DNA from: an uncultured Prevotellaceae bacterium
GTDB taxonomy: Bacteria; Bacteroidota; Bacteroidia; Bacteroidales; Bacteroidaceae
NCBI GenBank assembly: GCA_902790625.1
Contig: CADASP010000004.1
Location: forward strand, 1 to 64,000
Length of the DNA: 64,000 nt
Direction: 5' to 3'
Shown: positions 38,701 through 53,414 of the stretch, one piece after another
Numbering within the stretch: the first letter of the stretch is position 1
Layout of the letters: each line of letters starts with the position of its first letter
Notes under the pieces: model-generated
What the model was told of the DNA's origin: nothing
The model's input: the letters and a program-made list of their open reading frames with translations, nothing else
The model's database searches: none
Program-made: the position numbers and the translations under genes

Positions 38701-40563
38701 GCTGCCATAGTAGCTGTATTCGTCGACCGATGTCGTGTGGTTATGGTTCACTCCCGCCGCCAGACGTGCGCCGGGAGCCGTAACCCAGGGATAGCGCTGG
38801 CCGTTGGGGCTGGCGGCGGCGGTGGCATAGCTCGAGAAGCTGGCGATGTCGCCGATGGTGTATTCGTCGGCCATGCTGTGCGTCGTGCCCTGATAGTCCT
38901 TCCACGTATTGGCCGAGACGTAGGCCCCGATGCTGATGGCGTTGGGCACCATCGCCTCGTCGCTCACGCACATGTCGTCTGAGCCTGCCATCCAGTTGTA
39001 GCCGCTGGTGGAGAGGTGGTTGGTGAAGTAGCCGTAATCGCCGCCCCAGATGTCGACCACCGAGCTGCCGCTGGTAGGATAGACCTGAATGGCCAGTGTG
39101 TAATTGCTCTTGTAATAGTTCTCGCCATTCTTGGTGGTAGTGGTTGAGCTCATTGTTTCGATTCCGTTTTCTGAATAGAGTACAACCTGAGTCTTGTCGG
39201 ACTCTACTTCATCATAATACACATTGAGCGTACCATCGTAATACGTGCTGAGCCCACTCACGGTGCCCGTCTGAGTTATCGTTCCGGTGGTTAGCACCTC
39301 TCCCGTCGAGGCATCGAGCACCAGAATCTTGATGCCCAGCTTGCTCACGCTGGTGGAGCGCGCCCAGGCATTGGCGATGAGACCTTTGTAGAAATAACCA
39401 CCGTCGGTGTTAGTATAGTAGTCGGCACGCACAATGGTGCTCAGCGGACTGCTACTGCTGGCCGTACCACTGATATGATAGCCGCCGCCCTCGCCATCCT
39501 TGCTTTTGGCTCCGTCGTTGGAAGCGGCAAAGAGTGCAATATGGTTAGGATGGTTGTCGCCAAACAGGTCTTTATATACGTCGGCCACGTCGCCCGTTCC
39601 GTCGTGCGGTCCCCATTGCGAGCCCCAGCTGTTGCTCACCACCACGGGCATATTGTTGTCGTCGGCATACTGCACGATTTTCTTCACGGCGTTCGACAAA
39701 TATGTGTCGTTAAGATCATAGATGCCAGCCAGGTAGAGGTCGCTACCGGGCGCCATTCCGCCATAGGTGGCATTGGCGTGGTCGTCGGTGACGGTGACGG
39801 TGGTGCCATTCACCCGCACGCTCGAGCCGCCGGCTGTAGTGGAAGTATGCGTGCCGTGGTCTTCTGCGTTGTCGTCGGTCAACGTGGTGCTCGTAATGGA
39901 AGTATATTCCTGTGCTTCGTAGCCATTATAGACGTATGCCCGCTTGATGCGCGAGTTGCCGTCCTTGTCCTTGAAGGCGATGTGGCCGAAGTCGATGCCG
40001 GTGTCGATGATGCCGAGCACCACTCCCGTTCCATCGTATTTCTGAGTGAGTCCTTCACCGATGGCATCGGCCGAGAGCGTCAGCAGGTCGTCGACGTTGG
40101 TGGTGGCGCGGGCGGTCTTCGTCGTGATGCGCTTCAGCGACGACACGTTGACGCGCTTCACGTTGCCGATGGCTGCCACGTCCATCACCTTGTCCACGGG
40201 GATGAGCGTGGTGAAGAGGCCGTTGCTGAACTCCTCCTGAACGATGACGCCTTGCGCCTCTATCTCGCCGCGGCGGCTGGGGTCGGCCAGACGCACGTAG
40301 GCTGCGATGTAGGCCTTGCCGTCGATGGTGTCGGGGGCGGCATAGATGCGCCCCGCGTTCTTGTGGTTGCGCTGCCACCGCTTGTCAACGGGCGTCAGTC
40401 CCAGCTGTTTCTCAGCTTGGGTGCTGCGCTTAGGACCGATGTTTCCCGCCATCTCGTCGAGAAACATCTGTGTGGTGGTCGACAACTTCTTGCTTGCATC
40501 CTCTTGTGCGAATCCTGCCAGCGTGCCTGCCGCGAGGATAAGGGCAAATAAAAATCTTTTCAT
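35740..40563 (-). CDS. S8 subtilisin-like peptidase with duplicated C-terminal modules and dockerin-like end
   Basis: A 1607-residue secreted protease; the ATG at 40563 begins the signal peptide MKRFLFALILAAGTLAGFAQ. The catalytic triad is Asp187 (IIDTGID), His236 (DHGTHTS) and Ser643 (EGTSMATP). After the catalytic domain come several Ig-like anchor domains (repeats of LxFxxxLGSSTTQTVKVGG type) and a roughly 200-residue module present twice (YATIDEAGW...EYEDDEVAWL). It ends in a dockerin-like pair (DVNHDGEVTIADA, NVNLDDGITIADA). It is likely an extracellular protein-degrading enzyme. A -7 box TACCTTTG is at 40589-40596. Confidence 0.92.
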   Translation of the reverse strand: MKRFLFALILAAGTLAGFAQEDASKKLSTTTQMFLDEMAGNIGPKRSTQAEKQLGLTPVDKRWQRNHKNAGRIYAAPDTIDGKAYIAAYVRLADPSRRGEIEAQGVIVQEEFSNGLFTTLIPVDKVMDVAAIGNVKRVNVSSLKRITTKTARATTNVDDLLTLSADAIGEGLTQKYDGTGVVLGIIDTGIDFGHIAFKDKDGNSRIKRAYVYNGYEAQEYTSITSTTLTDDNAEDHGTHTSTTAGGSSVRVNGTTVTVTDDHANATYGGMAPGSDLYLAGIYDLNDTYLSNAVKKIVQYADDNNMPVVVSNSWGSQWGPHDGTGDVADVYKDLFGDNHPNHIALFAASNDGAKSKDGEGGGYHISGTASSSSPLSTIVRADYYTNTDGGYFYKGLIANAWARSTSVSKLGIKILVLDASTGEVLTTGTITQTGTVSGLSTYYDGTLNVYYDEVESDKTQVVLYSENGIETMSSTTTTKNGENYYKSNYTLAIQVYPTSGSSVVDIWGGDYGYFTNHLSTSGYNWMAGSDDMCVSDEAMVPNAISIGAYVSANTWKDYQGTTHSMADEYTIGDIASFSSYATAAASPNGQRYPWVTAPGARLAAGVNHNHTTSVDEYSYYGSKHNSDLVVNSTKNPYAMMEGTSMATPVAAGIVALWLQASMDEHALHKNLTVNDVKQIMAATAINDDYTTNGPNASHFGNGKIDALAGIKYILGATSEPTIRTDHQELSFEGYATLSYQQTVGVTGFNLEGDISVTMAGDDAFSVDQTTIEQTDGSVSATLTIGYAPTEAGTHTATITLASQNAESVTISITGIAEAATPTILADKQELAFSAQLGSSTTQTVKVGGRFLTQEVTATLADDNGVFSISNSSFAVADEGVDIAVTFSADVEGSYTASLLLASEGANSITISLSAIARDGGTASDNFLNIANYATIDEAGWSTTYVNNLYKYTEYEDDEVAWLTMPVYGAYASKAFEPKAQNWIAYNGTNYSGTPWTSTDVYAGSSSYFTSATARSYGNTGGSTKQTVSFYVSNITGAKLYGKNTKNVNSSYPTSLKVYECTINGDGTLTVGTEAVKSAQNATAKATFNIGVADLDASKIYKVDASIYQGYLYEIAFQTPLDVEKIPTIKAEPTELTFEPIYATTEATQTFTLKGKYLTDKVTLALSDESGAFSIDKSEVSAVEAAAGAAIAVSFHPAEAGTFSATLTLTSEGAAPVSVSIIGTAEPATPTILVDEQELTFVASLDTDQSQAFRVNGRFIHSNVTFTLSGDSHVFSVNPATLAADQITEDGEGAPVAVTFNASEEGTYNATLTLASEGAEPVAISLTATANDGGTASDVYLNISKYATIDDAGWNTSYVNNLYKYTEYEDDEVAWLTLPIYGAFVGASYAPDKTTLGSGHPQAWIESGVTNTNQCGSTPWGNTDVYLGSSSYFTSVDAKAVGTNSKNSKSAKTVTFYVTNTTAIKLYINQGSNQPTQYPTTLNIYECDVDEDGSLTASEMAVESITHTTAGKASLSIADLDKEKVYKVVASQARGYLYEIAFQTSLPKKYQLGDVNHDGEVTIADALAIVRHILGEPAEGIFDEKTANVNLDDGITIADAAAVISIILQ

Positions 40564-40827
40564 TGGGTTAGAGTCATAAAAAAGTATGCAAAGGTAGTGA
40601 TAATACTGCATTTAGAAGAAAACAGCCACAGAGATTTATAGTTTTTTTGCACTCTCGCATCCCCAGGGTTTCAGTTTAGTTCGCCACGAGTGTCCTCCCG
40701 CTCACCAGCATAACGGGGATTACAAGTTTGCAATACAGGAGTCTTCTGTTGTTCAGCAACGTTTTTCACGAATAATGATTCCCAAAGAAGTGCAACCGTC
40801 TTTTCTACCGCATTAGGTCGTAAAATT

Positions 40828-41183
40828 TGTTAAGACGGAAGGCACCTCAAAACAGCTGAAAGCCCTCAAAACTCGCTTGCTTTCCACGAAAAAATAATTG
40901 GACGAAAATAAGCGAGTTTTGAGGGGGGGTGACAAACCTTTGGTTTTCAGGCGTATTGGCTCGATTTGGCGATAAAAACCCATGGTTGGCTCCAAAAAGT
41001 CAACGCCGAAAAAAAATTTGGCGTTGACTTTTTCTTTTTTGGCGTGCTCGCAGAAACGAAAAATGGCCTAAAAAATGGCTAAAATCATGCACAAAACGGC
41101 CATGGTTGTGCAAAAATCGCCTCAGAAATCGATTTCCCTTCCTCGCTCGCCTTGCTCAAACAGCCCAAAATGTGCGTTGTTTT
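40828..41183. repeat. About 370-bp intergenic repeat, copy B (inverted)
   Basis: The reverse complement of this block matches 18089-18455 over its whole length with scattered substitutions, including the CAAAACTCGCTT hairpin and the GGCGTTGAC palindrome. Confidence 0.85.
40994..41033. repeat. GGCGTTGACTTTTT palindrome inside copy B
   Basis: AAAAAGTCAACGCC (40994-41007) and GGCGTTGACTTTTT (41020-41033) are perfect complements with a 12-base loop. Confidence 0.9.
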
Positions 41184-41244
41184 CATCCTTCCATTCAGTT
41201 TTACCAAGAAAAAACAAATCACAACCCTTGTGAAAGGCCTTATC

Positions 41245-41260
41245 GTGGGAAACTTTAGTT
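41245..41260. repeat. Scar of an IS terminal repeat
   Basis: GTGGGAAACTTTAGTT is identical to the right end (53198-53213) of the IS at 52280-53212, in the same orientation, without any IS body next to it. It marks the left edge of the second island. Confidence 0.7.
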
Positions 41261-41332
41261 CTTTTATACAAAAAATCAAAAAAGGCAACCGACTCTGCAA
41301 AAAAATATGTAACTTTGCAAAAACATTTTGCC

Positions 41333-44300
41333 ATGAAAAGGTTTGCAGTTATTTTAGGGATAACACTCTTCTTTATGAATTGTGTTGCCCAAAACAAAAT
41401 TGTCGAAAATCCCATTTTCGATAGAACGAGCAATATCTCATTGCGTGTTGTTAAAGTCGTATGTGGTGAAGACACGACATTTGTTCATTGTGAGTATTCT
41501 GCGGTACCTCAGTCTTGGGCGAATATCTCTGATCGAACTTATCTTGCAAACGAATATACAGGTGAACATTTGACTTTGCTAAGATGTGAAGGTCTTCCGT
41601 TTTCCCCAGATAAACGCCACTTTGCTAATTCTGAGAAAATCGAAGTTGTTTTTTGTTTCCCCTCCATAACATCTGATAGTTTCAGTTTTATTGAAGGTGA
41701 TGAAGATGATGGCTTTAACATACATGGGATTCATTTGAATGAAAGCTATTTCAATGAGTTTTCTGAGAGTGATTATAACCGTTACGTAAATATGGCCTCT
41801 TTCTACACTGAAAGCAATAACATTGGGAAAGCCATAGAGTATAAACTGAAAGAATTGGAAGCTTCCAACTATTTATATGGAATGAAGTCAGAAATGTCTT
41901 CTACGGCATGCTTACAACTTGCCATTCTTTACGATGATTACGGTGATTACGGCAAGGCAATAATGTATGGTAAAGAAGCTTTGCAAAGTAGCTCCGAACT
42001 ATATGGAATTATAAATAAAGAATTGCCAGTTTATGTAGGTAACCTACGGTGTTTGGCTGGCTTTTTGAGAGATGCAGGACGTTATTCGGAAGCTGTTGAT
42101 TATTATTCTAAGTCTGCAGATTTGTACAAGGAAATGTTTGGAACTGATCACGAAGATTATAGTGCTACTTTACATCTTTTATCCGCTACTTATAATGAAT
42201 GTGACAGTCTGGATAAAGCAATTGAGATAATGAGTGAGACAGTAGAATTGCAGATGAAGAATCTCGGCATTGATCATTCTAACACTTTAATGTCATTAAA
42301 TAACTTAGCTGGATATCTATCCAAAAAAGGAGAATATGTTAAGGCAATAGAAATCGCTTCCAAAATTGCGGAAGCAGAAGAACGCAAAGGAGACAAAGAA
42401 GCGCTAGCATTATTCTATAATAATTTGGCAGGTTATTATGCAAAATTGAACGATTATGAAAATGCTATCAGAAATGGAGATAAAGCGGTAAACATTCGTA
42501 AAATAATATACGGAGAAGAGTCGATAGAATATGCTAGCTCCCTCTCAAACCTCGCAATGTACTATTTGAATTCGCCTACGGGAAGTAAAGATAAAGCAGA
42601 AGAAGCCTGTCTGAAGGCTCTATCTATAAAAAGGTTGTTATTTGGCCCAATGCATATACAAAATACTTCAACCATGTCTGTTCTTGCCGATATTTATGCA
42701 CATGAAGGTAGGTATTATGATGCTATTGAAGTGTCTAAAGAAGCTTTAGCTATCATTGATAATGAAAAGGGAACAAACTGCAATGAATATGCTATTACTC
42801 TGAGCAACATTTCTCTTTACTATTCAGATTTAAATGATATGAATAATGCTATTGAAAAAGGCAAAGAAGTCTGCATCATATATAAAAATCTGTTTGGGGA
42901 TGAAAATGTTATTTATGCTGAGAATCTTGCCTATTTGGCTAATACATACGCGAAATTTCGGCAATTTGAAAAAGCTTTAGAGTGCATGGAACAGGGACTT
43001 AAGATTCTACAAAAAAACTGTATAGGCCAATTAGAATCAACTGATGAAACATGGAGATCATTGTTTTGGAGTAAGTATAGCTCTTTCTTTGATTTGAATT
43101 ATCCATATATTGTGGCTAATTGCAACACTAATAGCTCTGTGGCTAATTTATATAACATGAGATTGTTCACTAAAGGACTCCTTTATTATCAGAGCAATCA
43201 GTCATCTTATGATATTACCTGGCAAGATGTTCGTAATAATCTTGGACAGGATGATATGGCTATTGAATTTGTCACTTCATCAAACTACACTAAGGGAGAC
43301 AGCTTGAATGCCTCTTTCTATGCCCTTTGCATTACAAAAGACCAGCCGTTTCCCAAAATGAAAAAGCTATTTGGACTCAATACAATTATTGGTAAAATTG
43401 ATGATTATCTATCACTATTAGACAATATAGGTAATAGATTGTGGGGAGAATTACATGAAGAAATAGCGGGGAAAAATAACATCTATTTTTCTGCTTCAAA
43501 TTTCTTGAATTCTATAAATATAGAAGATTTATTTGTAGATGGTATCGGAAACATTTCGGATAAATACAACATTTACAGACTAACTTCAACTAAAGAAATA
43601 GTTTTAAAAAGGAGTGGGTCAAATAGCAAGAATGCGGTTTTGTTCGGAGGGCTTAATTATGATGAGAAGGATTGTTCAACAACAAACAGTAAAGAGGCTT
43701 CTTATAAAAGGAGCGGATATGATTTTCTATATAATTCCAAGATTGAGATTGATACATTAGCTTCTATTCTAACTAGGTCTGGGTATGTATGTGAGAGTTA
43801 TAGTGGGACGAATGGCACAGAGGATATTTTCAAAAACCTATCATCACGCAATTGTCAAATACTTCATATTGCAACACATGGCGCTAATATGGATATCGGT
43901 AATAATACCGAATTATATTTGCAGGGGCATAAGGCTTTGAGCGATGATTCAAAGCAAGGCAATCAATATGAAAAGAGTGGGCTTGTTCGTTCTTATCTTG
44001 TGCTTTCTGGAGGAAATTTGTTGTTAAGACGAGAACAGCCAATATCTGGTGATGACGGAATCTTAACATCAGAGGAGATTTCAAAATTGGATCTAAAGTC
44101 CGTAGACCTTGTTGTGCTATCAGCATGTGAAACAGGACAGGGCGAATATGGCGTTGATGATAGTATGCTAGGACTTCAAAGGGGATTTAAGTATGCAGGG
44201 GTAAATACCATAATAATGAGTATGTGGGATATTGATGACAAAGCAACCCAACTTTTAATGGTAGAGTTTTACAAGAATTTAATGGCAGGCAAGAGTAAAT

Positions 44301-44407
44301 ACCAATCTCTTAAAAATGCCAAAAAGTATCTTCGGCAAGTTGAAAATGGCAAATATGACAAGCCTGAATACTGGGCTTCGTTTATAATGTTGGATGGGTT
44401 GAACTAA
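41333..44407 (+). CDS. TPR protein with C-terminal CHAT protease domain
   Basis: A 1024-residue protein; the ATG at 41333 gives a signal-like start (MKRFAVILGITLFFMNCVAQ). Residues about 140-560 are kinesin-light-chain-like tetratricopeptide repeats (for example SLSNLAMYYLNSPTGSKDKA). The C-terminal 250 residues are a CHAT domain, a caspase-fold protease, with His849 in HIATHG and Cys932 in LSACETG. CHAT proteases cleave partner proteins after activation in signalling or defence systems. The signal sequence would put this one outside the cytoplasm. It lies in the same AT-rich island as the caspase gene and may work with it. Confidence 0.9.
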   Translation: MKRFAVILGITLFFMNCVAQNKIVENPIFDRTSNISLRVVKVVCGEDTTFVHCEYSAVPQSWANISDRTYLANEYTGEHLTLLRCEGLPFSPDKRHFANSEKIEVVFCFPSITSDSFSFIEGDEDDGFNIHGIHLNESYFNEFSESDYNRYVNMASFYTESNNIGKAIEYKLKELEASNYLYGMKSEMSSTACLQLAILYDDYGDYGKAIMYGKEALQSSSELYGIINKELPVYVGNLRCLAGFLRDAGRYSEAVDYYSKSADLYKEMFGTDHEDYSATLHLLSATYNECDSLDKAIEIMSETVELQMKNLGIDHSNTLMSLNNLAGYLSKKGEYVKAIEIASKIAEAEERKGDKEALALFYNNLAGYYAKLNDYENAIRNGDKAVNIRKIIYGEESIEYASSLSNLAMYYLNSPTGSKDKAEEACLKALSIKRLLFGPMHIQNTSTMSVLADIYAHEGRYYDAIEVSKEALAIIDNEKGTNCNEYAITLSNISLYYSDLNDMNNAIEKGKEVCIIYKNLFGDENVIYAENLAYLANTYAKFRQFEKALECMEQGLKILQKNCIGQLESTDETWRSLFWSKYSSFFDLNYPYIVANCNTNSSVANLYNMRLFTKGLLYYQSNQSSYDITWQDVRNNLGQDDMAIEFVTSSNYTKGDSLNASFYALCITKDQPFPKMKKLFGLNTIIGKIDDYLSLLDNIGNRLWGELHEEIAGKNNIYFSASNFLNSINIEDLFVDGIGNISDKYNIYRLTSTKEIVLKRSGSNSKNAVLFGGLNYDEKDCSTTNSKEASYKRSGYDFLYNSKIEIDTLASILTRSGYVCESYSGTNGTEDIFKNLSSRNCQILHIATHGANMDIGNNTELYLQGHKALSDDSKQGNQYEKSGLVRSYLVLSGGNLLLRREQPISGDDGILTSEEISKLDLKSVDLVVLSACETGQGEYGVDDSMLGLQRGFKYAGVNTIIMSMWDIDDKATQLLMVEFYKNLMAGKSKYQSLKNAKKYLRQVENGKYDKPEYWASFIMLDGLN

Positions 44408-44437
44408 TATCGGAGAGGGGAATCCCTCTCTCCGATA
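44408..44437. terminator. Shared terminator between CHAT and zinc-ribbon genes
   Basis: TATCGGAGAG (44408-44417) pairs with CTCTCCGATA (44428-44437), with further GGG/CCC pairing inside. It lies between two converging genes and can serve both. Confidence 0.85.
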
Positions 44438-44440
44438 ACA

Positions 44441-44587
44441 TTAGTACTCATAAGGTCTGTCAAGGACTTTTGTGTTTCCGCAATTGGGGCACTTGTACTC
44501 TGTTAGTTGACGAGCAACACAATTTCGAATTTCAGTTCTTGTCCCTGTCTCGACCATCTGACTGTTACAAAAAAAACATTTTTCCAT
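44441..44587 (-). CDS. Small zinc-ribbon protein
   Basis: A 48-residue protein starting MEKCFFCNSQMV at 44587, next to an upstream ATG that is less likely. Two CxxC pairs (CFFC and CPNC) spaced 31 residues apart form a probable zinc ribbon. Such small proteins are common in Bacteroidetes and of unknown role (YgiT-like zinc-finger proteins are one related group). It has its own full promoter at 44700-44731 and a leader of about 100 bases. Confidence 0.75.
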   Translation of the reverse strand: MEKCFFCNSQMVETGTRTEIRNCVARQLTEYKCPNCGNTKVLDRPYEY

Positions 44588-44699
44588 AAATGAATCTTTT
44601 TTGTTAATACTATGCGGTTCTCCCTGCACCGCGTTGTCAAGCTACTAACATTGGTTCAAGACTCGAGTATGGAGCAGAAACCGGAGTTGTTTCTGGCTG

Positions 44700-44731
44700 C
44701 AAAGTTACAAATAATATCGGGAAGTGCCAAA
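44700..44731 (-). promoter_or_regulatory. Promoter of the zinc-ribbon gene
   Basis: TTTG (44728-44731, minus strand) and TAACTTTG (44700-44707) are separated by 20 bases. Confidence 0.75.
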
Positions 44732-44979
44732 TCTTTTCCGAGATTTTTGCGTGCGTTTGAAACTTGTCGATAGATTTTACGGCAACGGATAAACACGGAA
44801 AGACATGGAGTCACCGTAGGCTGTTAAACTGATTAGCTCACATTATTCACCGAGATTGCTTTTTTTCTTCGACACTACGTACCGCAGTTGTTTCCGGGTG
44901 AAGGCAGAGGGAGAAAAGCATGGGAGAGAGGAAGAGAAACGTTGGATAACAGGGGAAGAAGGGCTGCGTTGACAGTTTC

Positions 44980-45057
44980 GGGCGGCCGCCCTGATTCATG
45001 CGGGCGGCCGCCCTTATATAGTGGAGCGACCGCCCCGATATGTTGGAGCGGCCGCCC
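44980..45057. repeat. GGGCGGCCGCCC palindrome array
   Basis: Four GC-rich units lie about 22 bases apart: GGGCGGCCGCCC at 44980-44991 and 45002-45013, then degenerate GGAGCGACCGCCC and GGAGCGGCCGCCC. They stand out in an AT-rich gap and could form hairpins. The rest of the 44.6-45.1 kb gap shows no gene. Confidence 0.8.
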
Positions 45058-45128
45058 AAAATCAGTTTTTATTCCTCCTCAATGGCCTTGAATAATATCT
45101 TACGGATTTGTGCTGCTTCCATATAAAT

Positions 45129-45146
45129 TCTATAGAGTCTATAGAG
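45129..45146. repeat. CTATAG repeat, short copy
   Basis: Two TCTATAGAG units, nine bases apart, of the same type as the six-unit array at 101-154, here at the end of the anti-sigma-like fragment. Confidence 0.6.
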
Positions 45147-45297
45147 CTTGGCTATGGATTCTCAATATGACCGCCACGATACAGGCACATGAACGCAAGT
45201 GCGTATCTGTTGTCAATCTTGTTATGAATGCGCCCTCTTCCTCCTGGCTCATCTGCCCTCTTAGGAACTTCTCTACCAGATCAATATGTTCTTCCAT
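45139..45297 (-). pseudogene. Truncated second copy of the anti-sigma-like N-terminus
   Basis: A 52-codon frame beginning MEEHIDLVEKFLRGQMSQEE. Residues 8-30 align with residues 16-38 of the anti-sigma-like protein at 45392-46144 (IEAFLRGEMSAEEEAAF), after which the sequence diverges and stops inside a CTATAG repeat. No transmembrane helix or TPR region remains. It appears to be a duplicated and truncated gene, or a short free form of the sigma-binding segment. Confidence 0.55.
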
Positions 45298-45346
45298 TTG
45301 GCATCTGTTTTTACCCTTGATACACTATACTGGGAAGAAGGTAATC

Positions 45347-45382
45347 GAAAAAGCAGGAGGACAACCTTGTGATTGTCCTCCT
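45347..45382 (-). terminator. Terminator of the caspase-sigma operon
   Basis: AGGAGGACAA (45355-45364) pairs perfectly with TTGTCCTCCT (45373-45382), and on the minus strand the hairpin is followed by GCTTTTT. Confidence 0.85.
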
Positions 45383-45391
45383 AATGAGTCT

Positions 45392-46144
45392 CTATAGGTC
45401 TTGCAGTTTCTTTATCAGTGCGTCTGCCTTTATATATATAGGTGTATCTGGATTATCCGCTTTAAGTTTTTGCAGAATGGTGATGGCCTTGTCTATCTGG
45501 TCATCTTTTACGTATGCCAAGGCGAGGTTCCATGCGATGTCGTTGGTATAAGCATTATATGTATAGTCGTCATCAAAGGAATTGTAAATAGGCTCCAGTT
45601 CTTTGATAATATCTGAAACACTTCTGCTTTCTTGTATCTGATTGAAAAGGTCATATAGATGGGCTGTTGTGGCTGAGTCCAAATCGCCACGAGAAACCTC
45701 ATCCAGAGCATAATGTGTATAATACGGAGAAAGAGTATCGTTCAACACTTTGAATCTCTTATCTATCTGAATACCAAAGAAGAGTGCAAAGACTGCAGCA
45801 ATAGAGCAGGCCCAGCCAATGACAGAACGGGCTTTTGAATTACTGTCTTTTTCTTTGGAGTCATTACTCCCAATGTCATTTGATGCCGCTTTTTCAAGGC
45901 GAAAAGATGCTGTTTCTTTATATTTTTTTTCTACAGATTTAATAGCAGCCACTTCTTTCCTTTCCTCTTTTTCTCGTATTCCCTTGATGAGTGAAGTCAT
46001 TGCCATAGCACGGTTGCGCAATTCAGGATTCTTGCGTATCTCCTGCTTGAAGGCTGCCTCTTCCTCAGCACTCATTTCGCCACGAAGGAATGCTTCTATC
46101 CGCTCATCGATGCCATCCATCAATATATCTTCATTCTTATCCAT
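45392..46144 (-). CDS. Anti-sigma-like membrane protein with a C-terminal TPR-like region
   Basis: A 250-residue protein. The N-terminal segment (about 10-60, IEAFLRGEMSAEEEAAFKQE...) is the kind of short helical domain found at the start of Bacteroidetes anti-sigma-like proteins. One membrane helix lies near 108-124 (VIGWACSIAAVFALFFGI). The C-terminal part (about 190-250, DIAWNLALAYVKDDQIDKAITILQKL) looks like one or two tetratricopeptide units. Its start overlaps the sigma gene by eight bases. I infer that it holds the sigma factor at the membrane. Confidence 0.75.
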   Translation of the reverse strand: MDKNEDILMDGIDERIEAFLRGEMSAEEEAAFKQEIRKNPELRNRAMAMTSLIKGIREKEERKEVAAIKSVEKKYKETASFRLEKAASNDIGSNDSKEKDSNSKARSVIGWACSIAAVFALFFGIQIDKRFKVLNDTLSPYYTHYALDEVSRGDLDSATTAHLYDLFNQIQESRSVSDIIKELEPIYNSFDDDYTYNAYTNDIAWNLALAYVKDDQIDKAITILQKLKADNPDTPIYIKADALIKKLQDL

Positions 46145-46721
46145 AGATTCTGTTCATTAGTTCGTTATACTTGCTGCGGAATTTCTGTAGGCACTTGTAT
46201 TTCTGCGTTTTGACAGAGTTGGCATTGGCAAAGCCAAACATGTCCGCTATGGTTGTGGTTGTAAGATTGTCCCAATAGTACCCTTGAAAAATGTTCTTAC
46301 AGGTGTCGGGCATGGACTCGATGATACTTTGGACTATCTTTTCTGAGCGGGATACTTTCTCTGTATCTTCATCCTCAGTACAGAGTTTATACAGTTCGTC
46401 AATCTTGTCGGAACGGAAAGTGTCCTTATTGGTAATCCTGCTGTCATCAAACAATGGTACCACTTTCTTCTGTTTGCCAATAAACTTCAGCGTCTGATTG
46501 ATACAGATGCGAAGGAAGTAAGTGGAAAGTGTACTTGTAAGGTTTGACAGCTTGCCGTCACGAACATTCAGAAACAATGCCGTAGATGACTCCTGATAGA
46601 TGTCATAGAGATCATCATCCGATAGAGAAAAGGTCTTTCTCAAATATGACAGCACCTTCCCTCGTTCATCTGCAATGAACCTATTGAGTTCTGTGTTTTG
46701 TAACGTAATTTCCTTAACCAT
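46137..46721 (-). CDS. ECF-type RNA polymerase sigma factor
   Basis: A 194-residue protein with the two sigma domains: region 2 (VLSYLRKTFSLSDDDLYDIYQESSTALF) and region 4 (IIESMPDTCKNIFQGYYWDNLTTTTIADMFGFANANSVKTQKYKCLQKF). Size and lack of other domains fit an extracytoplasmic-function sigma factor. It sits between the caspase gene (one-base gap) and the anti-sigma-like gene (eight-base overlap), so the three are one operon. It probably controls its own cluster; the target promoter is unknown. Confidence 0.88.
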   Translation of the reverse strand: MVKEITLQNTELNRFIADERGKVLSYLRKTFSLSDDDLYDIYQESSTALFLNVRDGKLSNLTSTLSTYFLRICINQTLKFIGKQKKVVPLFDDSRITNKDTFRSDKIDELYKLCTEDEDTEKVSRSEKIVQSIIESMPDTCKNIFQGYYWDNLTTTTIADMFGFANANSVKTQKYKCLQKFRSKYNELMNRIYG

Positions 46722-46722
46722 A

Positions 46723-47595
46723 TTAGAAACTCGTTTCTATTACAAGATTCTGATTGTTTGGCCAGCAGCCATTCCGAAGAATAGAATTCTTGACCTGCTT
46801 CAGAAATCCTTCGTAATCTGTCGTAAGAGTACAAACAGAAAGAGCCTGCACAATATTATATGATAGTGGGCCATAACGCTTCCCGTCTATCTTTATCTCT
46901 TTGTTTACCTGGTCTGGTCGGCAAGCCTCAAGGAACAGCACATCAGCCAGTTTCTTGGAAGCATCAATCCTGTAATGGGACTTTTTATTTGTTGAAGGTT
47001 TGAAAATCTTATTGTTAAATGTAAAGCCGACGTTGGTTCCACGGATAGTTTCGTCGTTGGCCCTTGATGATGTGCCTGCATGACAAGCGTCAATGGTAAC
47101 ATACAAGAAGCCAATGGGGCCGATTCTTTCACGAAGTTTCTTGATGTATTTGTTGAGTTTGTCATCCGTTAGGTGCTTGTCCCCCTCGTATGTACCTTTC
47201 TTATATAGTTTATAAGCATCTATTGGAACGATGGCTTCGTCCCAGCCATCCTCCTCATCGCCATCCATGTCTTCTACGGGTTGCCCATGAGTAGAGAAAT
47301 GCAAATAAACAATGTCGCCTTTCTTCGTGTCGGTTGTGAACTGAGAAAGTTGGCTGACGATATGATTATAGGTGGCATCATTGTCCAATAGCGTGGTTAT
47401 AGAGAAACCTTGTGCACTCAACACAGGGCTAAGCAGGTTAATGTCTTCCACTCCATTAATGTTGTTCCACTGATAGCCAGTAAGGGCAGTGTCATAATGT
47501 GAGATTCCAACAAGAAATGCCCGTTTCCGCTGAGCGAATCCAACGGAAGGAAACAGTATTACTGCCAGAAACAGGCATAGTCTAAATCTCATCAT
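46723..47595 (-). CDS. Caspase-family (metacaspase-like) protease, secreted or membrane-targeted
   Basis: A 290-residue protein. ATGs at 47595 and 47592 both give a signal peptide (MMRFRLCLFLAVILFPSVGFAQ). The peptidase C14 p20 fold follows: RKRAFLVGISHY, catalytic His103 in LHFSTHGQ and catalytic Cys171 in TIDACHAGTSS. The acidic loop MDGDEEDGWDEAI resembles the calcium or substrate loop of metacaspases. First gene of an operon with a sigma and anti-sigma-like gene. The signal sequence suggests it acts outside the cytoplasm. Confidence 0.9.
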   Translation of the reverse strand: MMRFRLCLFLAVILFPSVGFAQRKRAFLVGISHYDTALTGYQWNNINGVEDINLLSPVLSAQGFSITTLLDNDATYNHIVSQLSQFTTDTKKGDIVYLHFSTHGQPVEDMDGDEEDGWDEAIVPIDAYKLYKKGTYEGDKHLTDDKLNKYIKKLRERIGPIGFLYVTIDACHAGTSSRANDETIRGTNVGFTFNNKIFKPSTNKKSHYRIDASKKLADVLFLEACRPDQVNKEIKIDGKRYGPLSYNIVQALSVCTLTTDYEGFLKQVKNSILRNGCWPNNQNLVIETSF

Positions 47596-47699
47596 AGATA
47601 TTTTTGGCAAAATTACAACTTTTTTTTGATTTAGCAGTTACCTTTTCACTTTTTCGAGTATAAAATGGCAAAGAAACAACAATTTAATCACAATAGAAG

Positions 47700-48254
47700 A
47701 TGAAAAGAGTTATATTACATGCCAAAAGAATAATCAGAAAGTTCTGGATGTTCTTACTGTTAGTTTGCGCTGGTTCTCCTTTTATTGGAATACCTGTTTT
47801 TGTCTTGATGCTCTCAATATCGTTGCTGTTCTTCAGGGATCCTTTCGATATAGACGAGAAAGCCCTCTTAAAGAATTTCACGAAAGAGGAATTGGATGTC
47901 CTTAACGCTACAGAAATAGATGAAAGTATTTCAGATGATGACTATCTGGAACTGTACGCAAGGGCGCAGAACTTCATTTGTCCTCAAAGAGTTGACAGAG
48001 CCACGGTCTTGAAACGTGTGAGTCTTGCAAATAATGCATACATCTATGAATATGACCTGAACGAACAGGACAGCCGGGTGAAAGATAATTACGAGGTTGA
48101 ACTAAAGAAAGAACTCCTTTCTAATATTGATAGAAAGGACGTACGCACTATGAGAATGATTCGGTCTAAACGAAATTTCATTTACCGCTACTGGAATAAC
48201 AATTCAGATGGCTATAAAGATATTGTCATTACTCCAGAAGAACTTAATTCGTAA
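47700..48254 (+). CDS. Membrane protein of unknown function, first gene of the divergent operon
   Basis: A 184-residue protein. A basic start (MKRVILHAKRIIRKF) precedes a long hydrophobic hairpin (WMFLLLVCAGSPFIGIPVFVLMLSISLLFF), that is, one or two membrane helices. The rest (about 50-184) is charged and soluble. The family was not recognised. It begins the seven-gene operon divergent from the caspase gene, 104 bases from its start. Confidence 0.65.
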   Translation: MKRVILHAKRIIRKFWMFLLLVCAGSPFIGIPVFVLMLSISLLFFRDPFDIDEKALLKNFTKEELDVLNATEIDESISDDDYLELYARAQNFICPQRVDRATVLKRVSLANNAYIYEYDLNEQDSRVKDNYEVELKKELLSNIDRKDVRTMRMIRSKRNFIYRYWNNNSDGYKDIVITPEELNS

Positions 48255-48261
48255 ACAAATT

Positions 48262-48828
48262 ATGGCACTATTAAAATGGTTTGGCCTAACGCCAAGAAGG
48301 AATAAAGTCCAGGAACAGTCAGCGGCATCTCCGATAGAAGACAATAAAGGGAATGTCAGTCCTGATGAGGAAAATAATGTAGCAGAAGACAAGGAAAAGC
48401 TACTAACCATCACCTGGGGGACAGGGATGCCCATAGATGTCATCTTCAATTTCATTCACAAGAACTTTGAGGAAGAAGGCTATCAAGATGCATTGGTTAA
48501 TACTGACATCAACTATCGCGAGACAAAGGTGGGCATTATCCGCAACGATTTGGAAATGCTGTTCAAGCGGATTTCACTGCGATATAAGAACGACATTCGG
48601 GAGTTGGATGTCCAGATGGAGAACGCAAGAAACGCTTATGCGCTTTCAAGTGCTGCACTGTTACAAGCCAGACACGACACTTACGAAGAGCATTTGTCTG
48701 AAATTGCCAATATGGAAAAACTGCTTGAAGCAGAAGATCCAAAGATGATGACTATGATAGAATCTTATCGGCGTGGGTTCATGAAAGGCATTGCTGCTAT
48801 GGCACTGAAATTCATTAACAACGAATAA
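48262..48828 (+). CDS. Hypothetical coiled-coil protein
   Basis: A 188-residue protein; the ATG at 48262, seven bases after the previous stop, is preferred over one at 48208. The first 50 residues are charged and low in structure. Residues about 95-170 form a long helical segment (YKNDIRELDVQMENARNAYAL) likely to be a coiled coil. No signal peptide or known domain. It is cotranscribed with the DUF4407 gene 13 bases downstream. Confidence 0.6.
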   Translation: MALLKWFGLTPRRNKVQEQSAASPIEDNKGNVSPDEENNVAEDKEKLLTITWGTGMPIDVIFNFIHKNFEEEGYQDALVNTDINYRETKVGIIRNDLEMLFKRISLRYKNDIRELDVQMENARNAYALSSAALLQARHDTYEEHLSEIANMEKLLEAEDPKMMTMIESYRRGFMKGIAAMALKFINNE

Positions 48829-48841
48829 GGAGGAAAGAAAC

Positions 48842-49825
48842 ATGAAAACATTAACAAATATCGGTTGTTTCCTAATTGGATGGGACAAGAATATCTTGAA
48901 GGAGTGTGGAGAGGCAAGCTATCGGCAATTCAGGAAACTGTTATCAGCCATTTGCATCATGATGATACTTTGGGGTACGATTGGCTTTTGTTTCGCAGAC
49001 AGGTATATCAATGTGGAGTCCTGGATATTAAAGATATGTATAGCTATGGCTTTCATGTTCATTGTGCTGTGTGTTGAACGGGTTATCATCTTAACAGTCG
49101 GGAAGGCCCGTCTGATGGGTTTTATGAGAGTGCTTCTTGCATTATGTATGGCACTTCTTGGTTCCTGCATATTCGATCAAATCATTTTCCGCAATGATAT
49201 TCAACAGGCAATACAGGAACACAGGGAGGATGTTATAAAAGAATCTATAACCAAGCGGCTCTCTATTTATGATAGCGACATCCAACGTATATCGCAGGAA
49301 ATGGATTCGTTAAGTCTGGCTACGATAGCCCTGAATGAAGAATTGCAGAAAAGGCCAGTTATAAAAGGGACAAATGTGACAACCCAAGAGCAAATCATAG
49401 GAATTGATGAGAACGGGAAGCCACAGAAGGTGAAGACTCAAACCGTTAATACCGTTACTTTGGCAAATCCCCTTGCTGAACAGCTGAAGGCCAACAATGA
49501 CCAGATTCAGATATACTCAACCCAGCTTGAGCAGCTTCGACAAGACAAAAAAGAAGTGGCAGAAACTGTACGAGCAGAAGTCGGCCAGCGTGCACCTGGC
49601 TTTATTGAAGAATTGGAAGCCACTCTGAAAGTGGTGTCGAAAAGTCCGGTTTCTCTGGTGTTCTACATTATCCTGTTCTGTTTCCTTACTTTTCTGGAAT
49701 TGTTTGTGCTTACAATCAAGATAGGTGAAAACAAATGTGATTACGAGCTAATCGTAGAAAACCAGCTCTATTTGAAGAGAAACCTCATGGAGCAGGCGGC
49801 GCAAAGCGCGTTAGTTAGAAAATGA
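48842..49825 (+). CDS. DUF4407 membrane protein
   Basis: A 327-residue protein matching DUF4407: two N-terminal helices (LLSAICIMMILWGTIGFCF and ICIAMAFMFIVLCV), a third (MRVLLALCMALLGSCIFDQIIF), a long coiled-coil loop with KESITKRLSIYDSDIQRISQEM, and a last helix (VFYIILFCFLTFLELFVLTIKI). DUF4407 proteins occur in mobile or conflict loci and have no known function. The loop could transmit a signal between the membrane and the soluble partners in the operon. Confidence 0.8.
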   Translation: MKTLTNIGCFLIGWDKNILKECGEASYRQFRKLLSAICIMMILWGTIGFCFADRYINVESWILKICIAMAFMFIVLCVERVIILTVGKARLMGFMRVLLALCMALLGSCIFDQIIFRNDIQQAIQEHREDVIKESITKRLSIYDSDIQRISQEMDSLSLATIALNEELQKRPVIKGTNVTTQEQIIGIDENGKPQKVKTQTVNTVTLANPLAEQLKANNDQIQIYSTQLEQLRQDKKEVAETVRAEVGQRAPGFIEELEATLKVVSKSPVSLVFYIILFCFLTFLELFVLTIKIGENKCDYELIVENQLYLKRNLMEQAAQSALVRK

Positions 49826-49858
49826 ACTTAGTATCTATATTTCAAAAAATTAAAAACT

Positions 49859-50032
49859 ATGGAAGATTTTGATTATGATGACTCTTATGAAGAGTATGAT
49901 GATGACTCTGAGTGTGGTGGTTATGAGTGGACAGAAGAAGATTCTTGGGACGCTCTGACGGATGGAATGTATGGTGATATGCCAAGGAATCCTCTGGAAT
50001 ACGATGCGATGATAGACGCAATGGGCTTTTAA
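49859..50032 (+). CDS. Small acidic protein with MGF C-terminus
   Basis: A 57-residue protein, too short for many gene finders, starting at the ATG 49859, 33 bases after the DUF4407 stop and 16 bases before the next gene. Its first half is strongly acidic (MEDFDYDDSYEEYDDDSE). The last nine residues DAMIDAMGF match the end of the WG-like protein of the first island (DSMMDGMGF). In-operon spacing and the shared tail support a real gene. The tail could be a recognition tag. Confidence 0.7.
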   Translation: MEDFDYDDSYEEYDDDSECGGYEWTEEDSWDALTDGMYGDMPRNPLEYDAMIDAMGF

Positions 50033-50048
50033 CAGAAAGGGTATTTGT

Positions 50049-50621
50049 ATGAATGAGCAATTGAAGGAAGACATCTCGAAAGAGTTGGAGCAGTTTCATT
50101 GCTCCATCCTTCTGGATGAAGTAAAAGAGAATGTCCGAAAGTTAAGGTCTTACGGAGTGGAGAATGCTGATATAGTAGCAGCAATGAACGAAGAGGAACT
50201 ATTCCCCCAATTGATAGTGACTAAGGATTACAAAATTATTTTGTCAGGGGAGCAACCAATAGAGGTAAAGATGGAGCCACTGATAAAGGCGGTCTACCTG
50301 CTCTTTCTCTCTCATCCTGAAGGCATCTTCCTGAAATGTCTGCCTGACTATAAGAACGATTTGACAAGTCTCTATCTTCTATTAAGACCATCTGGACTGA
50401 CAGACAGGGTTGAGAAGAGTATTATGGATGTTATCAATCCTACGCTCAACTCTATCAACGAGAAGTGTGCCAGAATCAGGAAGGTATTCTCAGGTGTACT
50501 ACCAAGTAGTGTAGCCCGCTACTATGCTATATCAGGCAGACGTGGTGAGGTTAAGAAAATCGAACTTGTTCGGGCTAATGTGATTTGGGAGTGCAAAATG
50601 CCAATTTCACAAGGCTTGTGA
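50049..50621 (+). CDS. Hypothetical protein, conserved in Bacteroidales
   Basis: A 190-residue protein of a conserved but unnamed type. It has the segments TKDYKIILSGEQPIEVKMEPL and YLLFLSHPEGIFLKCLPDYKNDL, and ends with RYYAISGRRGEVKKIELVRANVIWE. It is a helical, soluble protein with no signal peptide. It is cotranscribed with the acidic protein. No function is known. Confidence 0.65.
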   Translation: MNEQLKEDISKELEQFHCSILLDEVKENVRKLRSYGVENADIVAAMNEEELFPQLIVTKDYKIILSGEQPIEVKMEPLIKAVYLLFLSHPEGIFLKCLPDYKNDLTSLYLLLRPSGLTDRVEKSIMDVINPTLNSINEKCARIRKVFSGVLPSSVARYYAISGRRGEVKKIELVRANVIWECKMPISQGL

Positions 50622-50695
50622 ATGGATAATCAGAATGAGAAAGGATTATAAGATGTAACTTTGCAACTGCAAAGAAACCTTTAATTGTAACGATC

Positions 50696-51865
50696 ATGAA
50701 ACAAAAAGAAAAAGTGGCGTACACGCCAGAGTATGTTGAAAGCCTCGAAGAGAAACAGGTATTTGTGTTTGGTAGCAATCTGGTAGGGTGCCATTCAGGG
50801 GGAGCCGCTTTGCTGGCTGTCAGAGCATTTGGAGCAGTATGGGGGCAGGCCGAGGGGCCACAAGGACGGTGCTATGCCATTCCCGTGGACATCAGAGGAG
50901 AGAGCGTAGAAAATGTATCGACGTACATGAAGCGTCATATTGACAAGTTTCTGGCTTATGCTAAGGCTCACAGAGAGTCGTTCTTCCTGGTTCCGAGGAT
51001 AGGTTGTGGTGCTGCAGGGTTCGATGAGGAGTTCATTGCTCCATTCTTCAAGGATGCCCTTGACATGGAGAACGTAAGTCTGCCGAAGTCGTTTGTGAAC
51101 ATACTGACAGACGAGGAAAAGGACGAGGAAGACATGAAAAGAGACGGGACACAAAGAGTGTTCAACCTGATTATCCTTGATGAGAGCGGCTCGATGACTA
51201 CAATAGCCAAGCAGGCTGTAAACGGACTGAACGAGACGTTCCTGACTATCGAAACCGCCCAAAAGGAACATGAGGAGCAGCAACACTTCATCTCTCTTGT
51301 AGCCTTTAACAGCGCGAGAATCAGAAAGATAATGGACATAGTGGCAGTCCGCAAATCAGGTCAGTTGAGGTGGACTAACTATAATCCTGGTGCTTGTACA
51401 CCGTTGTTTGACGCTATGGGGCGGTCGCTGAATGAGCTACGCCAACATGTCACCGATGAGGATGTCGTGCTGGTCACAATCATCACTGATGGATATGAAA
51501 ACGCATCACGAGAATACAGTGGGCATGACATCAAGAGGTTGGTGGCCGACCTGAAAGCACAGGGATGGGTGTTTGCATATATTGGTACCAACCAGGATGT
51601 GGATGTCGTGGCCGATGACATGGGCATTCATAGCCGCATGAGCTACGACTATTCGCCAGAAGGCGCAAACGACATGTTTGAGAATGAGCGACGTAGCAGG
51701 AGTTTTTTCTTTTCCAAGCTTTCCCACGAAGGGAAACAGTTCATTATGGCTGACGACTTCGACTATTTCAATGTCGACGAAGGTAGTGAAAAGGAACATA
51801 CGGAAGACGAGTTAAAAGACCCAAAAGGATTCTGGAGCAGGATAAAGGGCAAAATAACAGGATGA
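50696..51865 (+). CDS. Macro-like (A1S_2505-type) domain fused to a von Willebrand factor A domain
   Basis: A 389-residue protein. Residues about 15-135 resemble the phage-type A1S_2505 / macro-like fold (QVFVFGSNLVGCHSGGAALLAV, GRCYAIPVD, LVPRIGCGAAGF). Residues about 155-350 are a von Willebrand A domain with the metal site DESGSM, a central TNYNPGACTPLFDAM and the last ITDGYENAS. Macro-like domains bind or remove ADP-ribose; vWA domains bind proteins through a metal ion. A -7 box TAACTTTG at 50656-50663 may add a second promoter. The fusion is unusual. Confidence 0.8.
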   Translation: MKQKEKVAYTPEYVESLEEKQVFVFGSNLVGCHSGGAALLAVRAFGAVWGQAEGPQGRCYAIPVDIRGESVENVSTYMKRHIDKFLAYAKAHRESFFLVPRIGCGAAGFDEEFIAPFFKDALDMENVSLPKSFVNILTDEEKDEEDMKRDGTQRVFNLIILDESGSMTTIAKQAVNGLNETFLTIETAQKEHEEQQHFISLVAFNSARIRKIMDIVAVRKSGQLRWTNYNPGACTPLFDAMGRSLNELRQHVTDEDVVLVTIITDGYENASREYSGHDIKRLVADLKAQGWVFAYIGTNQDVDVVADDMGIHSRMSYDYSPEGANDMFENERRSRSFFFSKLSHEGKQFIMADDFDYFNVDEGSEKEHTEDELKDPKGFWSRIKGKITG

Positions 51866-51889
51866 ACTATTACGGACTACGGGTATATA

Positions 51890-52249
51890 ATGGCTCAATG
51901 CCGGAAGTTCCATTTCACAAAGTGGGATGAGAGCATATTAATGGATTGCCAGTCGTTCTTGTCGAACCTTACAAGGGAGGAGATGATAAACGTCTGCAGA
52001 AGCAGGTTTTTAGACGAGAAGCATCCACTGAAGCAAACAACATTCAAAGTGTTGTTTGCTGACAAGGTGGGTAAACGCGAAGAGCGTATCAAAAATCTGC
52101 CTACCGACCAGCTGAAAGAGGAATTCAAGTACAAGAAGAGGGGCAATGTTGCGTTAATTCGCGGGGAACTGCGTGAACGCTACAAAGCTAATAGGGACAG
52201 GGCGATGGTTGAAATGGCTTTCAACGCATCAACCAAAATCGGCAAGTAA
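51890..52249 (+). CDS. Hypothetical protein, last gene of the operon
   Basis: A 119-residue basic protein beginning MAQCRKFHFTKWDESILMDC. The middle RFLDEKHPLKQTTFKVLFADKVGKREERIK suggests a helical nucleic-acid or protein-binding role, but no family was recognised. It follows the macro-vWA gene by 24 bases. Its end overlaps the read-through end of the truncated transposase frame on the other strand by 21 bases. Confidence 0.6.
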   Translation: MAQCRKFHFTKWDESILMDCQSFLSNLTREEMINVCRSRFLDEKHPLKQTTFKVLFADKVGKREERIKNLPTDQLKEEFKYKKRGNVALIRGELRERYKANRDRAMVEMAFNASTKIGK

Positions 52250-53098
52250 TGCCCCTTTTATTACAATTAGGTGTCTGTGACTAAAGTTTCCCACCCCTGC
52301 CTTTACCGGGATTATGTGATGCTTCAATCGGCAGAAGTCTATACCATCAAACCAGCTGTCAGCCAGGAAGTATGCCGCGCGTATCCAGCGCTTCCATGAG
52401 CGGCGCACCATTTCGAGGGCGACCTGCGTCTTCACCTTGTCGAGTTCCTTCTTCCTCTTGTATCCCACACTGTCGGTGTCGCGCTCCTTCCTGGACAGCC
52501 CCTTCCGCTCCTCCGCTGAGAGGCTGTAGTCCTTCTTACTGCCCTTCTCGCGATGCAGGGAACAGTCCAGCGGTATAGTGCTCTTTCCGTCGCAGTAGCT
52601 CAGCGTCAGCATCTTGTAACCGAGCACATGCCGTCCACTGGTATGGTCATGCACGCGACTGAGACCCTCGAAATGACGGACGGTCTTCTCCAGCGTGGTG
52701 TCGTCCACAATATAAAAGTCCGGCGTGCCGGCACTCTCCCCACCGCGCCGCTCCACGATGCGCAGGAACTGCTTTGCCACTCCAAGCAGCAGGCCGCGCC
52801 AGTTGTAGGAGGCGTTGGCGAGAAAGCGGTAGAAACAATTCTTACCAATGCCTTCGTCAAGCAACCCATACCATTTCTCCTTATAGAAGCGGAACACACT
52901 TACTTCAAGGATGCGGATGAGCAGAAGGTAAAGCAACAGCACTGAGCACGGTACGCCCTGCTGCTTGGTGATACCGGACATCTGCATAATATTGCCCAGC
53001 CGGAACTCACGACCTACGGCCACTATTTTCTGCCCAAGACTCTCTTTTTCGCACAAAAATTTGCTCAGCTCACAGATTTTGCCTAATTTTGCATTCAT
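52229..53098 (-). pseudogene. Truncated IS4-family transposase
   Basis: A 289-codon frame. Residues 1 to about 255 are an IS4-type transposase: LLLYLLLIRILEVSVFRFYKE, the first catalytic Asp in FYIVDDTTLEKT and a second in YFLADSWFDG. Then the sequence runs directly into the IS terminal repeat and out into flanking DNA. The C-terminal part with the catalytic Glu is missing, so it cannot transpose by itself. A -7 box TATCTTTG at 53145-53152 would be its promoter. Confidence 0.9.
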
Positions 53099-53212
53099 AA
53101 CGGTTTCTGTTAATTCGTTGCGTCTGTTGTACTTTTAGCGAATACAAAGATACAACAAATTTTCGAGAAACCGCTATTTTATTGGAATTTACTAAAGGTG
53201 GGAAACTTTAGT
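52280..53212 (-). mobile_element. Internally deleted IS4-family insertion sequence
   Basis: The element is bounded by ACTAAAGTTTCCCACC (52280-52295) and its exact complement (53197-53212), the terminal inverted repeats. At 933 bases it is shorter than expected for a full IS of this family, consistent with loss of the 3' part of the transposase. No clear target-site duplication was seen. It forms the right edge of the second island. Confidence 0.9.
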
Positions 53213-53254
53213 TAAAAAAGATATTCGTACAAATGAGCGCTCCCATTTTCAAGC

Positions 53255-53268
53255 GGCGTTGACTTTTT
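53255..53268. repeat. GGCGTTGACTTTTT half-element
   Basis: One arm of the palindrome family, without its complementary arm, upstream of the M6 gene. Confidence 0.75.
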
Positions 53269-53353
53269 CGTTCCACCATCGCCCTCGAAGAATGGGAAGT
53301 CCTTGCAGAAAGCCGCATCAGAGCCAATCTTTCCAAGAAAAAGCGCCCAATCC

Positions 53354-53384
53354 TTTGCCAGTTCGCATAAAATGCGTATATTTG
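53354..53384 (+). promoter_or_regulatory. Promoter of the M6 peptidase gene
   Basis: TTTG (53354-53357) and TATATTTG (53377-53384) are separated by 19 bases. The ATG at 53415 is 30 bases downstream. Confidence 0.85.
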
Positions 53385-53414
53385 CAAGCTGAAAACAAAC
53401 GAACTACGATAGGA

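Follow-up and report, generated by a model that had tools for sequence, protein, structure and literature searches.

How is a gene set wired that combines two caspase-fold proteases with a sigma factor, its presumed inhibitor and a divergent membrane operon, and what do the proteases cut? This question is raised by a locus of an uncultured Prevotellaceae bacterium, located at positions 41,333 to 52,249 of a window of 64,000 nucleotides (the whole stretch of DNA analysed: contig CADASP010000004.1 of assembly GCA_902790625.1, positions 1 to 64,000). A preliminary description had proposed that the sigma factor turns on the divergent operon and that the proteases cut the operon's products. An open reading frame check of the window and domain scans recovered every gene of the cassette and of the divergent operon where that description had placed it. 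Comparison with related loci suggests, with slightly better than even confidence, a self-contained protease-sigma switch, in which two proteases, both predicted to be exported, would bring about the cutting of the anti-sigma and thereby release a private extracytoplasmic function (ECF) sigma, which would act on one outward-facing promoter at each cassette edge. The central features are as follows:

41263..41289, minus strand: left outward promoter-like motif GTTGCC-N14-GTATAAA, just before CHAT and facing away from the cassette
41333..44407, plus strand: tetratricopeptide repeat (TPR)-CHAT protease, 1024 aa, with a signal-like hydrophobic N-terminus and the CHAT domain at residues 696-1019
45392..46144, minus strand: anti-sigma-like protein with a cytoplasmic N-terminal part, one transmembrane helix and an external TPR-like C-terminal part
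46137..46721, minus strand: ECF-type sigma, 194 aa, overlapping the anti-sigma start by 8 bases
46723..47595, minus strand: metacaspase-type caspase, 290 aa, with His103/Cys171, linker Arg185-Gly186 and a signal-like N-terminus
47637..47664, plus strand: promoter-like motif GTTACC-N15-GTATAAA on the right, directed outward, 35 bp ahead of the ATG of d1
47700..48254, plus strand: d1, small protein with a membrane segment at its N-terminus, in a variable slot taken by other genes in relatives
48262..48828, plus strand: D2, helical-bundle protein, directly preceding D3 wherever both are seen
48842..49825, plus strand: D3, DUF4407 membrane protein with four predicted transmembrane helices and, at residues 117-248, a stalk of coiled-coil/beta-hairpin type

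Domain and profile scans assigned the TPR-CHAT protein (CHAT, PF12770, 4.9e-43), the caspase (PF00656, 9.7e-20), the sigma (TIGR02937, 3.3e-12) and D3 (DUF4407, PF14362, 5.3e-35); domain scans gave no convincing family for d1, D2, d4, d5 and d7. The anti-sigma, which is encoded together with the sigma, was called from its position, its transmembrane helix and a weak N-terminal match to profile NF052375 (E 0.026). The start of D2 is most likely at 48262 (MALLKW...) rather than at 48208. Only weak matches were obtained in PADLOC (caspase, 4.3e-5; D3 to PDC-S06, 2.1e-4), and a known defence system is therefore not claimed. Sequence searches of the PDB with the sigma and with d6 returned no match at 0.1, and Rfam had none across 40000-53500.

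Related loci were taken from D3 matches in genomes of the family and in named genome contigs and from sigma neighbourhoods. This resulted in 102 loci, of which 87 are non-redundant after removal of 15 duplicates (same contigs under a second name). Of 251 family genomes, the own genome included, 17 contain D3, which was also found in 71 loci of named genome contigs; going by record labels, all of these or almost all are from Bacteroidota (one D3 contig record is labelled Clostridiales, others merely 'bacterium'). Among the 87 loci, the caspase was found in 42, the sigma in 43, the anti-sigma in 44, TPR-CHAT in 43, D3 in 73 and D2 in 70; three D3 loci lack D2, namely L029 and L084, which start at a contig end, and L111, where the match is partial. 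Caspase, sigma, anti-sigma and TPR-CHAT thus form a recurrent cassette. Cassette and D2-D3 are two modules that are often joined, since each also occurs without the other. Cassettes without D2-D3 are found in L143-L148 and L150-L153, with CHAT adjoining the caspase in L146, L147 and L152. Without a cassette, D2-D3 directly follow an HNH-like protein in 15/87 loci (for the one tested, that of L032, the Pfam HNH match was below the cut-off) and lie inside Ter-type operons in 5/87. The Ter operon of L097 (285-16169) encodes, according to Pfam, three copies of TerD, a vWA protein, PP2C, a protein kinase, a PrsW protease, a P-type ATPase and an ADP-ribosylglycohydrolase. Clustering placed a Ter-type gene set around D2-D3 also in L071, L098, L100 and L103; of this set the window has the vWA fusion only. 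Mobile carriage of D3 was limited to 0 phage records, 1 plasmid record at 27% and 1 viral contig, and a phage origin was dropped on account of these scarce matches.

The joining of the two modules exceeds chance. A sigma relative at E <= 1e-18, a cut-off picked with the list already in view, occurs in 18 of the 251 family genomes, and six genomes contain both D3 and the sigma relative against 1.2 expected (hypergeometric, 4.4e-4); in all six the two are neighbours. Recurrent gene orders and these statistics agree that cassette and divergent operon belong together. Caspase-sigma loci without D2-D3, which the preliminary description would have taken as a sign of incidental adjacency, do exist, but the operon is not an incidental neighbour, because a promoter-like motif ties it to the cassette.

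This bipartite motif, GTTACC-N15-GTATAAA, directed toward the divergent operon (D operon), emerged from an intergenic alignment of 32 loci and is repeated within the intergenic region of L048 and L064. Scored over 13 fixed bases with at least 11 matching, within 250 bp upstream of the D operon, it was found in 24 of 31 loci with caspase, sigma and D2 vs 3 of 37 others (Fisher 3e-9); one of these three, L073, has a cassette with a split sigma. Four loci (L034, L083, L088, L110) have a TTTACC-N15-CGATAAA version ahead of the first gene and again ahead of D2. In three of the four genomes carrying this version, these two sites at the locus are the only ones; in the fourth genome, of 7.1 Mb, a single exact site lies at the locus and four sites with one mismatch lie elsewhere. 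The reversed control gave three in one genome. The motif or its clade-specific version is kept in 29/29 divergent loci with cassette and D2.

Across 25 related genomes, GTTACCTTTTN11GTATAAA with at most one mismatch gave 36 sites in 22 genomes, compared with one site for the reversed control. In 13 genomes a contig carries two sites separated by 5-13 kb, and each of these 13 pairs points outward; eight genomes have a single site. Three genomes have none: in L027 the spacing is 14, in L050 there are two mismatches, and in L042 the locus contains no cassette. For 30 of the 36 sites the downstream genes were inspected: 15 sites stand ahead of d1, D2 or d4, and the other 15 ahead of genes for secreted repeat proteins or S152, with three of the latter assignments (L158, L173, L182) being a reading of the translation as a secreted repeat. 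The secreted repeat and S152 genes lie left of CHAT in relatives. In the own genome (4.14 Mb), the pattern GTTRCCTTTTN{10,12}GTATAAA, widened once the left site had been seen, has exactly two sites, both at the cassette edges, and none in the reversed control. The motif is thus nearly confined to cassette edges in the genomes searched. We infer that it is the promoter of the cassette sigma. Being conserved, tied to the cassette and placed ahead of the D operon, it makes the activation of the divergent operon by the sigma, proposed earlier, the best reading at present.

The motif could also belong to another regulator, with cassette and operon sharing a hot spot by chance or through selection for joint gain. 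The occurrence of either module alone would agree with this, as would restriction genes seen, by reading, near loci in some genomes (L028). Such an arrangement is very unlikely, as the motif follows the cassette, shifts with the sigma clade and, in L143 and L144, is retained upstream of an operon in which D2-D3 are absent. Another alternative would be an ordinary ECF stress regulator, the anti-sigma of which is cut by a housekeeping protease, with caspase and CHAT as outputs or clean-up. ECF/anti-sigma pairs are numerous in Bacteroidales, and cutting of the RseA/DegS type works without a caspase, going by the accessible text of one report (PMC10028731). For proteases serving as outputs, however, the position of the motif is unfavourable, as it precedes neither the caspase operon nor CHAT in CHAT's direction. 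Upstream of the caspase operon, the alignment contains instead, by reading, an element that resembles the TAnnTTTG consensus. Moreover, caspase, sigma and anti-sigma lie together as one run of genes, both in 31 D2 loci and in loci without D2-D3, which makes an ordinary stress regulator unlikely.

With regard to the substrate, the anti-sigma is the likelier target, because it spans the membrane and has one kept arginine in its outer linker. Its transmembrane helix comprises about residues 107-126 (topology by reading), and Arg152, encoded by codon 152 at 45689-45691, lies about 26 residues outside the membrane. Among anti-sigmas of 190-290 aa, to which the conservation counts were restricted, Arg152 is found in 42/44 sequences and Gly153 in 41/44; L085 and L095, which lack Arg152, have no sigma alongside. 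When the anti-sigma profile was compared with solved structures, all 14 matches were of TPR type by name or motif-like helix repeats, and none was Csx30.

The caspase has metacaspases as its closest solved structures. In relatives of 240-340 aa, the range covered by the signal, catalytic-residue and linker counts, His103, Cys171, Arg185 and Gly186 are present in 41/41, and the linker Arg-Gly follows Cys171 by 14 residues in every case. Prokaryotic metacaspase relatives (orthocaspases) have been described, in the accessible part of the source, to cleave after positively charged residues (PMC6426788). Since the caspase is of this Arg/Lys-cutting type and Arg-Gly is present both in its own linker and in the anti-sigma, a cut at Arg-Gly would be expected in both proteins, and Arg152-Gly153 is the candidate cut site in the anti-sigma. 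The CHAT His and Cys motifs were matched by pattern in 43/44 and 40/44 relatives, respectively. The signal sequences reported earlier for both proteases recur in relatives, with a hydrophobic N-terminus in 39/41 caspases and 40/44 CHAT proteins, and both are predicted to be exported. Two more caspase matches lie among secreted proteins near a sigma-like gene elsewhere in the own genome (C22:38232-42917, L040), one of them with an in-frame stop in the call.

Nothing points to the cutting of operon products, which had been suggested initially. According to this idea, cutting would turn D3 or d1 into an active pore or scaffold, with the sigma merely raising the dose. Membrane effectors activated by proteases exist, gasdermins being an example, and the long stalk predicted for D3 contains Arg139, which is nearly invariant, so that a cut in D3 would be conceivable. 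On the other hand, D2-D3 occur without caspase or CHAT in the HNH-type and Ter-type loci, and a check of the window's d1 and D3, which did not cover D2, found no Arg-Gly in either, which makes this route decidedly unlikely. The D3 model contains four membrane helices and the stalk (mean predicted local distance difference test (pLDDT) score 81) and the D2 model a helical bundle with a pLDDT of about 98 from residue 61 onward; fold searches in the PDB with both models gave no match at E <= 0.001, and weaker matches, generic coiled coils, were not used. Gasdermins were absent among the Pfam matches of the window up to E 1, a scan that included no search aimed at them.

Besides the nearly invariant Arg139 of D3, several observations weigh against the proposed switch. 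In L030, L106 and L109, where the cassette is co-directional with D2, no version of the motif was found, and the main motif was also not found in the cassette loci L145-L153, which lack D2-D3. The sigma's own operon has no motif copy. In the own genome, the stricter pattern with fixed spacing that was used first detects the right site only. Arg152 may be a structural residue, and the linker Arg-Gly may be a family trait of caspases, since a second, non-cassette caspase of the own genome has it as well. Finally, signal sequences were judged from hydrophobicity alone.

We infer the following order of events for the proposed switch. TPR-CHAT and the metacaspase would sense a signal outside the cytoplasm, with CHAT acting upstream of the caspase. 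The membrane anti-sigma would bind the sigma until it is cut in its outer linker, presumably by the caspase at Arg152-Gly153. The freed ECF sigma would then fire the two outward-facing promoters, and the response, an envelope stress or defence output, would come from the D2-D3 membrane module and its cargo. A more specific version, to which somewhat less than an even chance is given, is a CRISPR-free envelope relay, in which exported CHAT activates the exported metacaspase at its Arg-Gly, the caspase cuts the anti-sigma at the matching Arg-Gly, and the sigma fires no promoters of the genome other than these two, so that the membrane is loaded with D2-D3 and the cell surface with secreted repeat proteins. 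If true, this relay would couple a caspase cascade directly to transcription and serve as an innate alarm with exchangeable cargo, for which relatives have a second FtsZ, a DnaB paralogue, a vWA protein or an ADP-ribosyl hydrolase.

Switches in which a protease frees a sigma are already known, and the gene set with caspase-fold proteases predicted to be exported would be a new variation; the comparisons below rely on the accessible portions of the sources cited. In the type III-E Craspase locus, which likewise combines a TPR-CHAT protease, an inhibitor protein and an ECF-like sigma, cleavage of the inhibitor by the protease has been proposed to free the sigma (Csx29-Csx30-CASP-sigma), and sigma motifs lie within the own locus (PMC10028731). 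The cassette differs by a second protease, the caspase, by its membrane anti-sigma, by the predicted export of its proteases and by an anti-sigma profile that matched TPR proteins instead of Csx30; no Cas7-11 was noticed among its genes, for which no Cas7-11 family search was made. The SAVED-CHAT cascade, attributed to Steens et al. 2024, reportedly includes caspase and sigma/inhibitor steps. On this account, the cassette shares caspase, sigma and inhibitor with it in addition to the CHAT protease. In contrast to SAVED-CHAT, which belongs to type III-B CRISPR and has been characterized as a 'cascade of proteolytic activity' (PMC11229360), the cassette CHAT protein lacks a SAVED domain (TPR and CHAT only in Pfam) and the cassette is predicted to act at the envelope. 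Cmr2-type Cas10 was found in 0/11 genomes tested, with the control found in 4/14 and Csm1-type not searched. In CalpL-CalpT-CalpS, a protease cleaves an anti-sigma and frees an ECF sigma in defence (PMC11417357, PMC11229360), as is proposed for the cassette, but the protease is of Lon type and the input is cyclic oligoadenylate. The sigma-E/RseA/DegS system resembles the cassette in its membrane anti-sigma, a first cut that is predicted outside and later steps presumably left to host proteases (PMC10028731), as well as in the candidate sigma promoter motif in the target operon; DegS, however, is a trypsin-fold PDZ protease, whereas the cassette has caspase-fold proteases encoded with the sigma. 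Caspase genes adjoining sigma genes, as in the cassette, were noted in 2012 as metacaspase and sigma-70 operons (PMC3501461) and in 2021 as EACC2/caspase/ECF neighbourhoods (PMC8195603), where, in the text accessible to us, no link to CHAT, anti-sigma or a promoter and no DUF4407 module is described. A literature search that covered subscription journals thinly found no description of the whole gene set, and none on DUF4407 function, judging from titles and abstracts. If the switch is real, caspase-fold proteases would act at the cell envelope to control a bacterial sigma outside CRISPR, and the regulon would be small enough to be read from sequence alone. The old question of the role of secreted bacterial metacaspases and CHAT proteases would then become directly testable, and DUF4407 would gain a setting as a membrane module common to caspase, Ter-type and HNH systems.

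The D operon consists of the conserved D2-D3 pair and swappable cargo. The remaining features of its window copy and of the insertion sequence at both edges are:

41245..41259, minus strand: 15-base insertion sequence end repeat ACTAAAGTTTCCCAC, abutting the left promoter-like motif (exact-repeat search)
49859..50032, plus strand: d4, acidic protein, 57 aa
50049..50621, plus strand: d5, paralogue of a protein encoded next to a second FtsZ
50696..51865, plus strand: d6, fusion of an A1S_2505 domain and a vWA domain (profile matches)
51890..52249, plus strand: d7, a conserved operon protein in shortened form (length comparison with relatives)
52280..53212, no strand assigned: insertion sequence closing the D operon, with 15-base terminal repeats and a DDE_5 transposase (52229-53098, minus strand)

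The repeat ACTAAAGTTTCCCAC is the same 15-mer as both ends of the insertion sequence at 52280-53212, and the window has three exact copies against 0.00 expected. The target operon of the left promoter is absent from the window; since this promoter runs directly into ACTAAAGTTTCCCAC, an insertion sequence event appears to have removed the left operon. At the other edge, d7 has 119 aa, compared with 137-173 aa in 15 of the 16 relatives shown and 318 aa in one. With the insertion sequence adjoining this short d7, the D operon probably once extended beyond it, and the right operon would have been shortened by an element like that at the left edge.

The acidic peptide d4 noted in the preliminary description is real, with homologues of at least 60 aa in 23 of the 87 loci. 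Of the 'macro-like/vWA' assignment of d6, the vWA part held (phrog_7371, 1.1e-33), and the other half is better placed in the A1S_2505 family (NF049995, 5.1e-35). Cargo in relatives includes DnaB-type proteins, ADP-ribosylglycohydrolases, a WYL protein and a second FtsZ paired with a paralogue of d5. Of 15 genomes tested, the own genome included, 13 gave at least two FtsZ_C matches. In the own genome, a second FtsZ directly precedes a d5 paralogue on another contig (L188:8305-10161, C18); the same pair also lies inside the D operon of several relatives. The D operons of relatives can also contain full-length DnaB helicase paralogues (L042:13584-15143, L063:12347-13858, L044:12014-13573), which come in addition to the housekeeping DnaB. 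A protein resembling the exonuclease VII large subunit, with a C-terminal membrane segment and the motif upstream, is encoded at L045:1472-2731, L143:3459-4718 and L144:4190-5461. In the d6 homologue at L034:8342-9481, the order of the vWA and A1S_2505 domains is reversed. Outside the locus, 53259-57674 encodes a secreted M6-peptidase-like protein (weak Pfam match) with Big_2 repeats, on the basis of which a C10 assignment was rejected, and 35740-40611 encodes a secreted S8 subtilase with a dockerin.

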